Below are positions 35,295-40,426 of a stretch of 40,920 bases of DNA, one piece after another. Both the position numbers and the translations under genes were made by a program. The notes beneath the pieces were generated by a model. That model was not told the DNA's origin and made no database searches. It saw only the letters and a program-made list of their open reading frames with translations. The DNA lies in assembly GCA_035536535.1 (NCBI GenBank), contig DATLNZ010000073.1, positions 1 to 40,920 of the forward strand, written 5' to 3'. Within the stretch, counting starts at the first letter, position 1. Each line of letters opens with the position of its first letter. This DNA comes from Actinomycetota bacterium. GTDB lineage: Bacteria > Actinomycetota > JAICYB01.

Positions 35295-35870
35295 ATGGTG
35301 CAACTTCTCAGGGCGCAGTCACGCGCGGACACTCCCGACGAGATCCTCGCGCAGGGCGCCGCCGACGACAACCACGCCTTTACAGAGCTGTATCGCCGCT
35401 ACCTCGGCCCCGTCCACCGTTACATGCGGTACCAGGCCCCCCACGAGGAGGCCGAGGACCTGACGGCGCAGGTGTTCATGCAGGCGTACAGGGGCGCGTC
35501 CCAGTTCCGGGGCGAGGGCGCCTCTTACCGCGCCTGGCTGTTCCGCATCGCCCACAACACCTTGGCGACGTACCGCCGCGTGAGTCGGCGGACCCCAATT
35601 CCCCTGTCCGAGATCCCGGACCAGCTGGACGACGCGCCCGACCCCGCAGCCGGAGCCGCCGACCGCGAGCTCCGCCTCATCGTCAGGTCGATCGTCGACG
35701 AGCTCCCCGCGGCGGACCGCGAGCTCATCGAGCTGCGCTACGTCGAAGGCCTGGCTCCCCAGGAGATCGCGCACGTGACGGGCGCCTCGGACGGAGCGAT
35801 AAGAGTCCGGATCCACAGGCTCCTTAAGAGACTCCGGCCTCGGCTGGTCGAACGGGGGGTGCGCCTGTGA
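35295..35870 (+). CDS. ECF-type RNA polymerase sigma factor
   Basis: A 191-residue sigma-70 family protein with only regions 2 and 4, as in extracytoplasmic function sigma factors. Region 2 (about 28-95) has AFTELYRRYLGPVHRYMRY, EAEDLTAQVFMQAYRGA and SYRAWLFRIAHNTLATYRR; region 4 (about 135-185) has LPAADRELIELRYVEGLAPQEI and SDGAIRVRIHRLLKRLR, the helix-turn-helix for the -35 box. The ATG at 35295 has AAAGG just before it. It overlaps the next gene by GTGA and leads directly into the fatty-acid operon, so a link to lipid or envelope stress is suggested. Confidence 0.9.
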   Translation: MVQLLRAQSRADTPDEILAQGAADDNHAFTELYRRYLGPVHRYMRYQAPHEEAEDLTAQVFMQAYRGASQFRGEGASYRAWLFRIAHNTLATYRRVSRRTPIPLSEIPDQLDDAPDPAAGAADRELRLIVRSIVDELPAADRELIELRYVEGLAPQEIAHVTGASDGAIRVRIHRLLKRLRPRLVERGVRL

Positions 35871-36097
35871 ACGATGTAGAGCTTCTGTTGGTAAGGGCGC
35901 TTCCGAGGCCCGAGCCCGGCCCGGACCTGGCCGCGAGGCTGCTGGACCGGATCCTGTCATCGCAGGAAGATCCCCACGAACTGCCCCACAACCGGCGCCT
36001 GTACTTCGTCGGAGGCGCCTTTGCGGGGGCCGCCGCGCTGGCGGCAGTCATCGGAGTGCGCCTTACCCGGTCCAGGCGCTCCGGCAGGGCAGCCTGA
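35867..36097 (+). CDS. Small single-pass membrane protein, possible anti-sigma partner
   Basis: A 76-residue protein that overlaps the sigma gene by GTGA. The N-terminal 45 residues are predicted cytoplasmic (VELLLVRALPRPEPGPDLAARL), followed by one membrane helix (about 46-66, YFVGGAFAGAAALAAVIGV) and a short basic tail. It lacks the HxxxCxxC zinc motif of ZAS anti-sigma factors. Position next to an ECF sigma gene and the topology suggest it may tether or regulate the sigma factor, but this is a guess from context. Confidence 0.65.
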   Translation: MNDVELLLVRALPRPEPGPDLAARLLDRILSSQEDPHELPHNRRLYFVGGAFAGAAALAAVIGVRLTRSRRSGRAA

Positions 36098-36099
36098 CG

Positions 36100-36978
36100 G
36101 TGCGGGCGGTTCTTTTCCCCGGACAGGGGGCCCAGCACGCAGGGATGGGTTCGGGCCTGCGGGATCGCCATCCGGACGCCTTCGTTGAGGCCTCCACCGT
36201 GGTCGGCTTCGACATTGCGGCCTTGTGCGACTCAGGCCGTTGCGAGTCCGCGACCCTGGACTGCACACGCTGGGCCCAGCCGGCGATCGTGCTCGTCAGT
36301 GCGCTGTCCGCCCTGGACCACGGCGACGCCTTCTGCGCCGCCGCAGGCCACAGCGTCGGCGAATACTCGGCTCTCGTCCATGTGGGCAGCCTGACCCTGC
36401 GCGACGCGCTCTGGCTGGTCCTTCAAAGGTCCGACGCTATGGAGCGGGCGACGGCCGAGTGCCCGGGTCGCATGGCTTCGGTGCTCGGGCTCGACCGGCA
36501 ACTGGTTTGGTCGATTTGCTCCAGGACGGGGGCATCGATAGCCGCCGAAAACGCCCCGGGACACGTGGTGGTGACCGGTCCGAACGCTTCCGTGGAGGAA
36601 GTGACGAGGCTCTCTGCTGAGGCCGGGGCCAAGGTCCGGATGCTGAAGGTGTCGGGTCCCTTCCATTCGTCCGCAATGAGATTGGCCGTGCCAAGCCTGA
36701 CGCGAGCGCTGGACGCAGTGGACATCAAGCGTCCGCGACTGCCGTTCTGGTCATCGACGCGGGCCCGGGTCCTCGACGACCCTTCCGCCATCAGGGCTTC
36801 TCTGATCGATCAGCTGACGGAGCCGGTCGAGTGGGCCGCGACCATTCGAGGCATGCGGAACTCGGGGGTGGCCGACTTCCACGACGCAGGGCCCGGCAAC
36901 GTGCTGGCGGGGCTCGTCAAGCGCATCTTGCGGGAGGAGGTGCGGGATGGAGCTCCTGTCGCGGGAGGCACCCGCTGA
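36100..36978 (+). CDS. fabD: Malonyl-CoA:ACP transacylase
   Basis: FabD moves malonate from CoA to acyl carrier protein, feeding chain elongation. The 292-residue protein has LFPGQGAQ at the start, the nucleophile elbow GHSVGEYSAL (Ser85), Arg110 in LQRSDAM for the malonate carboxylate, catalytic His189 in GPFHSSAM and the C-terminal GPGNVLAGLVK. The GTG at 36100-36102 follows the previous stop by 2 bases and has no clear ribosome site, so coupled translation is likely. It overlaps the next gene by 32 bases. Confidence 0.95.
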   Translation: MRAVLFPGQGAQHAGMGSGLRDRHPDAFVEASTVVGFDIAALCDSGRCESATLDCTRWAQPAIVLVSALSALDHGDAFCAAAGHSVGEYSALVHVGSLTLRDALWLVLQRSDAMERATAECPGRMASVLGLDRQLVWSICSRTGASIAAENAPGHVVVTGPNASVEEVTRLSAEAGAKVRMLKVSGPFHSSAMRLAVPSLTRALDAVDIKRPRLPFWSSTRARVLDDPSAIRASLIDQLTEPVEWAATIRGMRNSGVADFHDAGPGNVLAGLVKRILREEVRDGAPVAGGTR

Positions 36979-37255
36979 CATAGGCGCAGCTGCGTCCTCG
37001 CAGGACGCGCTGGCCGACACGCACCACCGGATCGTCGTTTCCCCGGCCTTCGGAAAGTTCGTGCACGCGGCTCCGATGACGTTCACAGCTGAGGGCGAAT
37101 GGGTGTCGGCGGGACAGGTTCTCGGGACTCTGGAGACGGGCGACGGAACGATCGACGTCCCCTCGCCCTGCGACGGCTGGCTCGTGGACTACCTGGTCCT
37201 GGATGGGCAGCGCGTTCGTCCGGGGACGGCGTTGTGTCACGTGGAGGCCGAGTGA
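36947..37255 (+). CDS. Biotinyl/lipoyl-domain-like protein lacking the attachment lysine
   Basis: A 102-residue protein whose last 75 residues have the biotinyl/lipoyl carrier fold pattern: SPAFGKFVHAAP, GEWVSAGQVLGTLE, then VPSPCDGWLVDYLVLDGQRV and PGTALCHVE. In BCCP the hairpin has EAMKM with the biotinylated lysine; a gap-free alignment puts Asp66 there (ETGDGTIDV). It therefore cannot carry biotin or lipoate at the usual site. The ATG at 36947 has GGGAGGAGG upstream, within the end of fabD. Its place between fabD and fabH suggests a role around acetyl-CoA carboxylase, possibly regulatory like plant BADC proteins, but this is inference. Confidence 0.8.
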   Translation: MELLSREAPADIGAAASSQDALADTHHRIVVSPAFGKFVHAAPMTFTAEGEWVSAGQVLGTLETGDGTIDVPSPCDGWLVDYLVLDGQRVRPGTALCHVEAE

Positions 37256-38211
37256 CCGGCGCAACCGTCCTCGGATGCGGCATGGCGGTTCCGAGCCGGC
37301 GGGTCCCGAACTGCGAGCTCGAGGCGACCCTGGACACCGACGACGCCTGGATCAGACGCCGCACCGGCATCCAGGAGAGAAGGGTCGCCGCCCCGAACGA
37401 GGCGACCTCGACGTTCGCCGTTGCCGCCGCGAAGGAGGCTCTGGACGACGCAGGCGTCGAGGCTGGAGAGGTCGATCTGGTAATGGTCGCGACGTGTACC
37501 CCCGACTACCCGATGCCGGGGTCCGCTCCCATCGTGCAGCACGAGCTCGGTGCGACGTCTGCCGGAGCGGTGGACGTGAACGCCGGGTGCACCGGCTTCG
37601 TGTCCGCGCTTGCGCTGGCTGCGGCAACGGTTGACTCCGGCCAAGCGAGAACGGTCGTCGTCTGCGGCGCGGAGACGATGAGCAGGGTGATGGACTGGTC
37701 CGACAGGCGAACCGCCGTGCTTTTCGGCGACGGCGCCGGAGCGGTCGTGGTCGGCCGTGGATCAGGCGGCATCGGTCCGTTCGTCCAGGGCTCCGACGGA
37801 GCCAAGGCCGACTGGCTGCTGATTCCGGCGGGAGGCTCGAGGCGGCCCGCGGACGCCGAGTCCGTCGAGGAGCATGCCCACACGGTCCAGATGCGCGGAC
37901 AGGACGTTTACCGCCACGCGATCGACCGAATGGCGGAGGCCGCCACCGCCGTGTCCGACCCCCGCGACGTCGACCTGCTCGTGGCGCACCAAGCCAACGG
38001 CCGGATCATCGAAGCGCTCGGTGAGCGGCTGGGGCTGGAGCCGGAGCAGGTCGTGTGCAACATTGCCCGCTACGGCAACACCTCCGCCGCGTCCATCCCG
38101 ATCGCCCTTGCGGAAGCCGCGCGTAGCGGCCGTTTGCGGCGCGGGATGCGTGTTCTCCTCGTGGCCTTTGGGTCCGGTTTCCTGTGGTCCGCCGGAGTGG
38201 TCCGATGGTGA
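37252..38211 (+). CDS. fabH: Beta-ketoacyl-ACP synthase III
   Basis: FabH condenses acetyl- or branched acyl-CoA with malonyl-ACP to start fatty-acid chains. The 319-residue protein has the thiolase-fold triad Cys113 (VNAGCTGFVSAL), His246 (LLVAHQANGRII) and Asn276 (RYGNTSAAS), plus DAWIRRRTGI near the N-terminus and the C-terminal GFLWSAGVVRW. GTG at 37252-37254 overlaps the previous stop as GTGA. Primer choice (acetyl versus branched) cannot be read from sequence alone. Confidence 0.95.
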   Translation: MTGATVLGCGMAVPSRRVPNCELEATLDTDDAWIRRRTGIQERRVAAPNEATSTFAVAAAKEALDDAGVEAGEVDLVMVATCTPDYPMPGSAPIVQHELGATSAGAVDVNAGCTGFVSALALAAATVDSGQARTVVVCGAETMSRVMDWSDRRTAVLFGDGAGAVVVGRGSGGIGPFVQGSDGAKADWLLIPAGGSRRPADAESVEEHAHTVQMRGQDVYRHAIDRMAEAATAVSDPRDVDLLVAHQANGRIIEALGERLGLEPEQVVCNIARYGNTSAASIPIALAEAARSGRLRRGMRVLLVAFGSGFLWSAGVVRW

Positions 38212-38939
38212 CCGGCGTCGCTTTGGTCACCGGCGCGTCGCGAGGCATCGGGCGCGCCGTGGCGCTGCGTCTCGCAGACCAAGGAAGGACCGTGGCGGTC
38301 AACTACCGCAGCGACGAGGCGGGGGCCAAGGAGACGTGCAGGCTCATCGAGGTCGCGGGCGGCACGGCCATCACGGCCGCCGGCGACGTCGGCACCATCA
38401 CCGGCGTCGACGAGATGTTCGCGGCCGCCGAGCAGGCCGGGCCGGTGGAGGTCCTGGTCAACAACGCGGGCACGCGCCGAGACGGCCTCGCGGTGCTGAT
38501 GAAGCCGGACGCGTGGAGCGACGTGATCCGAACAAACCTCGACGGCCCGTTCCACGCCACCCGCCGCGCCCTGCGCGGGATGTTGTCGAAGCGCTGGGGG
38601 CGCATCGTCAACATCTCGTCGGTGGCGGGGCTGCGGGGCAGTCCCGGCCAGGCCAACTACTCTGCCGCCAAGGCGGGTCTGATCGGGATGACGAGGACGC
38701 TGGCCCGAGAGCTGGGGGCCAAGGGGATCACGGTCAACGCCGTGGCACCCGGACTCGTCCTGACCGCGTTGACCGAGGAGCTTCCGGCGGACCGGGTCGC
38801 GGCTATGACGGCGCAGTCGCCCATCGGGCGACTGGTGACCCCCGAGGAAGTGGCCGCCGCGACTGCGTTCCTCACGTCGGAGGAGGCGGCGGCGATCACT
38901 GGACAGGTGCTGTGTGTGGACGGCGGAATGACCGCCTAG
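38205..38939 (+). CDS. fabG: 3-oxoacyl-ACP reductase
   Basis: FabG reduces the beta-keto group with NADPH. This 244-residue short-chain dehydrogenase has the cofactor loop [12 protein letters not shown], Asn111, Ser139, and the catalytic YSAAK (Tyr152, Lys156), with NAVAPGLV and the C-terminal CVDGGMTA. The ATG at 38205 overlaps the fabH stop by 7 bases and has GGAG upstream; the GTG at 38208 would give a 4-base overlap. Position before acpP and fabF, and full-length motifs, support FabG rather than a general SDR. Confidence 0.93.
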   Translation: MVTGVALVTGASRGIGRAVALRLADQGRTVAVNYRSDEAGAKETCRLIEVAGGTAITAAGDVGTITGVDEMFAAAEQAGPVEVLVNNAGTRRDGLAVLMKPDAWSDVIRTNLDGPFHATRRALRGMLSKRWGRIVNISSVAGLRGSPGQANYSAAKAGLIGMTRTLARELGAKGITVNAVAPGLVLTALTEELPADRVAAMTAQSPIGRLVTPEEVAAATAFLTSEEAAAITGQVLCVDGGMTA

Positions 38940-38957: not shown

Positions 38958-39200
38958 ATGGAGCAAGAAGTAATGGTGAAGCTGACCGAGCTGCTCGCGC
39001 AGTTCCAGGTCGAGCCCGGCCAGGTCTCCGGGGACGCCACTTTCGAGGCACTCGGACTGGACTCTCTTGATGTCGTCGAGCTGTCCGTGAAGATCGAGGA
39101 CGCGTACGGAATCGACATCGAGGAGTCCGACCTCAAGGACGTTCAGACGGTCGGCGACGCGGTCCGCGTCGTGGTCGGCAAGGCCGGCGCGCGCGCATGA
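38958..39200 (+). CDS. acpP: Acyl carrier protein
   Basis: An 80-residue acidic acyl carrier protein. The 4'-phosphopantetheine attachment serine is Ser36 in [11 protein letters not shown]; the helices around it ([16 protein letters not shown] and [16 protein letters not shown]) match the family. The ATG at 38958 has AAGGAG upstream. A later in-frame ATG at codon 6 is possible. The stop overlaps fabF as ATGA. Confidence 0.97.
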
Positions 39201-40426
39201 GGCGCGTTGTCGTCACCGGCCTCGGTGTGGTGGGTCCTCTGGGCACCGGGGTGGAAGCCACCTGGCAGGCCCTGCTCGAGGGACGCTCGGGGGCCGGACC
39301 CATCACGCGCTTCGACACTGAAGGCTTCGGAGTCCGGATCGCCGCGGAAGCGTCGGACTTCGACCCCGGCGCGTTCATGGACGCTCGGGAAATCCGCAGG
39401 TCCGACCGCTTCTGCCAGCTGGCGGTCGCCGCGGCGCAGCTGGCGGTCGACGACGCGGGCTGGAACGGGTCCGTGCCCTTCGACCGCGACAGGGTGGGCG
39501 TCGTCGTCGGGTCCGGAGTCGGGGGCCTGGAGACGATGGAGCAGCAGCACGATGTCCTGCGCGACCGCGGCCCTTCCAAGGTCAGCCCCTTCGTCATCCC
39601 GCTGCTGATGATCAACGGGGCTCCCGGCGCGATAGCCATGCGTCTGGGCCTGACGGGCCCCAACTACGCCCCCGTCTCGGCCTGTGCGACCGGGGCCCAC
39701 TCTCTCGGAGAGGCGGCCAGGATGGTCCGGGACGGCTCGGCGGATGCGGTCCTCGCGGGGGGAGCCGAATCCGCGATCACCCCCTTGTCCATAGCCGCGT
39801 TCTCCGCAATGGGTGCCCTGTCCAGGCGAAACGACGAGCCCGCCGCTGCCTCACGTCCGTTCGACTCCGACCGTGACGGCTTCGTCATGGCAGAGGGCGC
39901 AGGCGTGCTCGTGCTCGAGTCCTATGAGGCCGCCGAGCGTCGTGGGGCCAACATCCTGGCGGAGCTCGCCGGATATGGGGCCTCCTGCGACGCGTTCCAC
40001 CTGACCCAGCCCGACCCCAATGGGACGGGCGCCGTCGCGGCGATGAAGATGGCGCTGGAGGACGCGAAGCTGAACCCGGGTGACGTCGGTTACGTCAACG
40101 CGCACGGGACGTCGACTCCTTTCAACGACAGGGTCGAGACGTCGGCCATCAAGGCCGTGTTCGCGGAGGCCCCTCCTGTCTCCTCGACCAAGTCGTCCAC
40201 CGGCCACCTGCTGGCTGCGGCCGGAGCAGTGGAGGCCGCGTTCAGCGTCATGGCCCTGCGCACCCAGACGCTGCCCCCGACCATCAACTACTCGACCCCC
40301 GATGCCGACTGCGACTTGGACTACGTGCCGAACACGCCGCGGAGCAGCCGGGTCGACGCGGTCATCTCCAACTCCTTCGGCTTCGGCGGACACAACGCCT
40401 GCCTCGCCTTCCGGGCGGTGCCGTGA
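39197..40426 (+). CDS. fabF: Beta-ketoacyl-ACP synthase II
   Basis: FabF elongates acyl-ACP by condensation with malonyl-ACP. The 409-residue protein has the Cys-His-His active site: Cys163 in SACATGAHS, His303 in NAHGTST and His337 in [14 protein letters not shown], with Lys332. The N-terminal [16 protein letters not shown] and the C-terminal [10 protein letters not shown] are typical. It starts with ATGA overlap to acpP and overlaps fabL as GTGA. The set with FabG and AcpP is typical of a type II system. Confidence 0.97.

Follow-up and report, generated by a model that had tools for sequence, protein, structure and literature searches.

Proteins that resemble the biotin carboxyl carrier protein (BCCP) and have lost its cofactor site are known from plants. 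The BADC proteins, subunits of the plastid heteromeric ACCase, lack the biotin motif and bind both biotin carboxylase (BC) and BCCP, and models of BADC as an inhibitor and as an assembly 'glue' have both been published, the plant construct used spanning A55-Q263 (PMC11926652). The BCCP domain itself (PF00364, TIGR00531; P. horikoshii 2evb/5gua, E. coli 1bdo) carries biotin on the lysine of an (A/V)MK(M/L) motif, and the E2 lipoyl domains share the same barrel-sandwich fold, with their lysine in DKA or DKV. Actinobacteria also possess AccE (PF13822), the small non-catalytic epsilon protein tied to acyl-CoA carboxylase (ACC).

The DNA analysed here (the window, 40,920 nucleotides from an Actinomycetota bacterium) carries on its forward strand a type II fatty-acid synthesis operon in the order fabD, X, fabH, fabG-like, acpP and fabF, where X denotes a 102-residue protein with a biotinyl-type fold and no attachment lysine (36947-37255). 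The fabD gene (36100-36978), encoding malonyl-CoA:ACP transacylase, was identified by Pfam Acyl_transf_1 (4e-28) and has an intact GHSVGEY active site. It shares 32 nt with X, whose clean reading frame begins at an ATG located 6 nt downstream of an AGGAGG ribosome-binding site read directly within the end of fabD (36935-36940). At the other end, the GTG start of fabH at 37252 overlaps the X stop codon (GTGA); fabH (37252-38211) encodes ketoacyl-ACP synthase III (Pfam ACP_syn_III_C, 6e-33). These overlaps at both ends of X suggest, from gene layout, that translation of fabD, X and fabH is coupled. The operon continues with a fabG-like ketoacyl-ACP reductase gene (38205-38939, with ATG at 38205 in an ORF listed from 38184), assigned from fabG relatives in the equivalent place, and with acpP (acyl carrier protein, 38958-39200) and fabF (ketoacyl-ACP synthase II, 39197-40426), both assigned from the ORF list and the operons of relatives; the contig stops shortly 3' of fabF. 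Upstream (35300-36097), an ORF for an ECF-type sigma factor and a short one of 76 aa lead directly into fabD, and an ECF sigma factor is also found 5' of fabD in one relative.

The original prediction gave X a biotinyl/lipoyl fold and placed Asp66 at the site of the attachment lysine, in gap-free register with BCCP, and both assignments hold. Pfam Biotin_lipoyl (PF00364) covers residues 30-97 with an E-value of 4.8e-7, over the curated cut-off. The AlphaFold2 model, run with an input alignment of X and ten relatives, is an eight-strand chain with pLDDT of at least 90 at 66 residues, preceded by an N-terminus of about 26 residues that is mostly low-confidence or disordered. When this model was compared with the PDB by Foldseek, P. 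horikoshii BCCP came top, with TM scores of 0.82-0.86 by target length for the best matches; E. coli BCCP, Arabidopsis BCCP1 and other biotinyl/lipoyl domains followed, as did the barrel found in the hydrolase CphZ (8eip). X thus has a biotinyl/lipoyl fold as judged from Pfam and predicted structure, and neither profile nor fold searches moved it to a non-biotinyl family. In a multiple alignment with six genuine BCCPs, Asp66 (GAC codon, 37142-37144, forward strand) occupied the exact column of the biotin lysine without gaps, and in the model residues 65-66 form the turn joining strands 58-64 and 67-72, at the position of the biotin hairpin.

X differs from the carriers that it resembles. It scored 23.3 bits against the 115.2 cut-off of the BCCP equivalog TIGR00531, the (A/V)MK(M/L) lysine is absent, and so is the lipoylated hairpin lysine of E2 and GcvH; the sole lysine of X is Lys37. 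Sequence matches to E2 lipoyl domains were weak, and the window genome's own E2 keeps its TDKV motif. The long N-terminal region of BCCP and BADC is also missing, X having only the disordered residues in its place. X likewise differs from AccE: with matches admitted up to E 1, Pfam did not report PF13822.

To establish how widely these features hold, relatives of X were collected by profile searches of Actinomycetota genomes and of one named collection, and 115 domains were kept after duplicates were removed and true carriers separated. A lysine was found in the biotin column of none of the 115, a set drawn from the top profile matches, in which absence of lysine was not a direct selection criterion and from which true BCCPs were excluded by motif. 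No lysine-bearing orthologue is thus among these relatives. The residues in that column were Arg (42), Gly (31), Ser (11), Ala (5), Gln (4), Asp (2) and others. The predicted non-lysine character of the site is therefore borne out by the alignment and Asp itself is not conserved: the trait kept at site 66 is 'not lysine', and Asp as a special residue was ruled out, Arg and Gly being commonest.

The hairpin around this site is also poorly kept. In the 115-member alignment, columns 63-70 averaged about 1.1 bits compared to 1.95 elsewhere in the domain, and the hairpin tip was deleted in 15 relatives; much of the strongest conservation fell on fold glycines and core residues and thus marks out no binding surface. 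From these alignments, the hairpin that a carrier requires has been given up, whereas the rest of the domain has been retained. The same pattern bears on the parallel with plant BADC drawn in the original prediction. In a BADC-like role, X would bind BC or the BCCP part of AccA3 and either aid its assembly or block it, and fusion to FabD would provide feedback from malonyl-CoA use. Both proteins are BCCP-like, devoid of the biotinylation motif and placed in fatty-acid synthesis (PMC11926652), and X adjoins accD in two genera. However, the degeneracy and frequent deletion of the hairpin speak against simple mimicry of the biotin end, being unlike what is expected of a domain that must enter the BC or carboxyltransferase (CT) active site, and the N-terminal region of plant BADC and BCCP is absent. 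Nor does X take the place of the ACC epsilon subunit, as AccE is also present in most Actinomycetes with fused X. We therefore regard a BADC-like action as quite unlikely and retain the parallel as an analogy between a plastid ACCase subunit and a short bacterial protein, either joined to FabD or encoded next to it, known here from its sequence.

Conservation of the domain core speaks equally to the possibility that X is a relic, descended from a biotin carrier and now without function. The loss of the lysine and of the hairpin motif would fit such a history, but it is contradicted by open frames and a core that are preserved across 115 members of many families, by recurrent fusion to FabD, by the strong ribosome site and by the maintained operon place. 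This wide conservation rules out decay, in agreement with the original prediction, and makes a relic scarcely credible. We are highly confident that X is a lysine-less, FabD-associated and functional protein.

The association with FabD is apparent from gene context. In 66 of the 115 relatives the domain forms the C-terminus of FabD (PF00698), each time followed by fabH, and 39 others, the window X among these, are small separate genes beside fabD. Among the 37 separate genes having both fabD and fabH in the locus, 36 are ordered fabD-X-fabH and one has a divergent fabD; two more come after fabD on contigs ending before fabH. Eight X genes lie 5' of fabH with no fabD match upstream, and two have neither a fabD nor a fabH match, one of these two being followed by accD. 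Thus the fabD-fabH position is kept, with fabD before or fused and fabH after, by the window X and 104 others (two cut at the contig end before fabH). Neither fabD nor fabH adjoined the excluded true BCCPs. A profile built from the family recovered fused and split forms together, indicating homology of the separate protein to the FabD C-terminal extension. The FabD structures found stop before this domain, S. coelicolor 1nm2 aligning to query residues 1-307 of 391.

X is fused to FabD only, in these 66 cases, which indicates that it works with FabD. One way for it to do so would be as a structural or allosteric FabD domain, packing on the enzyme and tuning how stable it is, how it recognises ACP or how substrates reach it, in the manner of the barrel appended to some hydrolases; the barrel within CphZ offers a similar case, and in one half of the family fused and split forms alike keep an N-terminal GE..ER motif. 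Against this, X is retained before fabH in one order although fabD lies elsewhere or is divergent, and accD is the neighbour of two X genes. In addition, fabD and X were joined in silico via a +1 reading of the overlap and modelled with AlphaFold on a shallow unpaired alignment, which makes the outcome weak evidence; a disordered linker separated two confident domains whose docking was not confident (pTM 0.73), and there was no fixed interface. We consider it unlikely that X is mainly such a domain.

Since fabH lies 3' of X in 111 of the 115 relatives, including loci without an adjacent fabD, X could alternatively act mainly on FabH, at initiation, its fusion to FabD passing malonyl-ACP on. 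But fabH following fabD is general in actinobacterial operons, no X-FabH fusion was seen among the 115 relatives, and two X genes are found with accD in place of fabH, which makes a FabH-directed module very unlikely.

Where fabD is elsewhere, X nevertheless stays in front of fabH or accD, which suggests further business with those partners and, taken with the FabD fusions, favours a tethered docking module. The two confident domains on a disordered linker in the joined FabD-X model have the form of such a module, whereas the lack of confident docking there counts against it. We propose that X is a barrel-sandwich domain without biotin or lipoate that would be made with FabD, whether as the last domain of the FabD chain or, translated from the next, overlapping gene, as a small protein of its own; the separate form would bind FabD. 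Being flexibly tethered, it would dock on a partner of the malonyl-CoA pathway, probably acyl-CoA carboxylase (AccD/AccA3) and perhaps also FabH, and would thereby keep FabD close to where malonyl-CoA arises or to the next enzyme, with a presumed effect on flux. As a whole, this mechanism, a cofactor-free BCCP-fold docking module of actinobacterial FAS-II that acts with FabD and probably tethers it to the carboxylase, is tentative and falls somewhat short of being probable. In a broader proposal, acetyl-CoA carboxylase would be coupled to FabD (and FabH) in much of the Actinomycetota by a dedicated BCCP mimic without cofactor, giving a malonyl-CoA channel or a flux sensor at the entry of FAS-II; this is a real possibility but a doubtful one.

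Binding of X to the carboxylase would be suggested by gene neighbourhood, on which this link rests, and such an order would be expected anyway in a fatty-acid operon. Within an order whose X genes usually open an operon X-fabH-acpP, two genera have X directly before an accD-type carboxyltransferase gene in place of fabH (L235/L208:7136-8953 in G279; L241 in G567). In seven other X-bearing operons, seen in longer stretches, accD is located 3' of fabF. The original prediction of a regulator or scaffold linking carboxylase to FabD and FabH thus gains genomic support for a putative scaffold, from the 66 fusions, the X-accD pairs in two genera and the accD genes ending several operons. X as the window genome's own ACC carrier was ruled out: genuine AMKM carriers (BC-BCCP proteins) and several carboxyltransferases are encoded elsewhere in this genome, and these have no need of X as a carrier. 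The idea that X stands in for AccE was likewise discarded, as most fused-X Actinomycetes have both and AccE is not replaced there; in the window genome itself, a search for AccE gave no match.

With regard to distribution, the 12 X loci of the named collection all come from MAGs titled Actinomycetota, Actinobacteria or Acidimicrobiia. In an even sample of one class, the fused form was present in roughly 75 of 198 genomes, as scored by match strength and open-frame length, and it was confirmed in the fused genomes inspected in detail. On the FabD tree, the fused and split states require three changes, of which well-supported branches force only one, and the fused forms fall into two or more distinct regions of it. 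No X match was obtained in a second genome of the same family as the window genome.

The fold of X is known and its domain architecture is new. Our searches of the open-licence literature for FabD with a biotinyl/lipoyl-like domain, a C-terminal extension or carboxylase channelling found no account of the domain, and it may have been mentioned elsewhere. It should be noted that domain databases already give a Biotin_lipoyl match on some fused FabD proteins, so that the architecture is visible to automatic annotation. In many Actinomycetota, then, a textbook enzyme carries or pairs with a biotin-carrier-like domain unable to carry biotin. The domain has the look of a docking part not yet described, through which the supply of malonyl-CoA may be tied to its use. 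If X docks the carboxylase or FabH, it would offer a testable physical route controlling the flow of malonyl-CoA into membrane lipids. X genes are also easily mislabelled as BCCP, a warning for annotators.

Two further observations were made among the loci. A near-perfect 22-bp palindrome, TTGACATTGACGTCAATGTCAA, is found shortly upstream of X at L228-L243, from three families. In the nine genomes searched with up to 3 mismatches, it occurred once each, before X, and twice in a genome with two X copies, and a reversed-pattern control gave zero matches. It precedes X-fabH and X-accD alike and looks like the operator of a dedicated regulator. Finally, two other genomes encode short separate carrier-like proteins in which the lysine is kept within AAKQ or TAKQ, compared to the usual AMKM.
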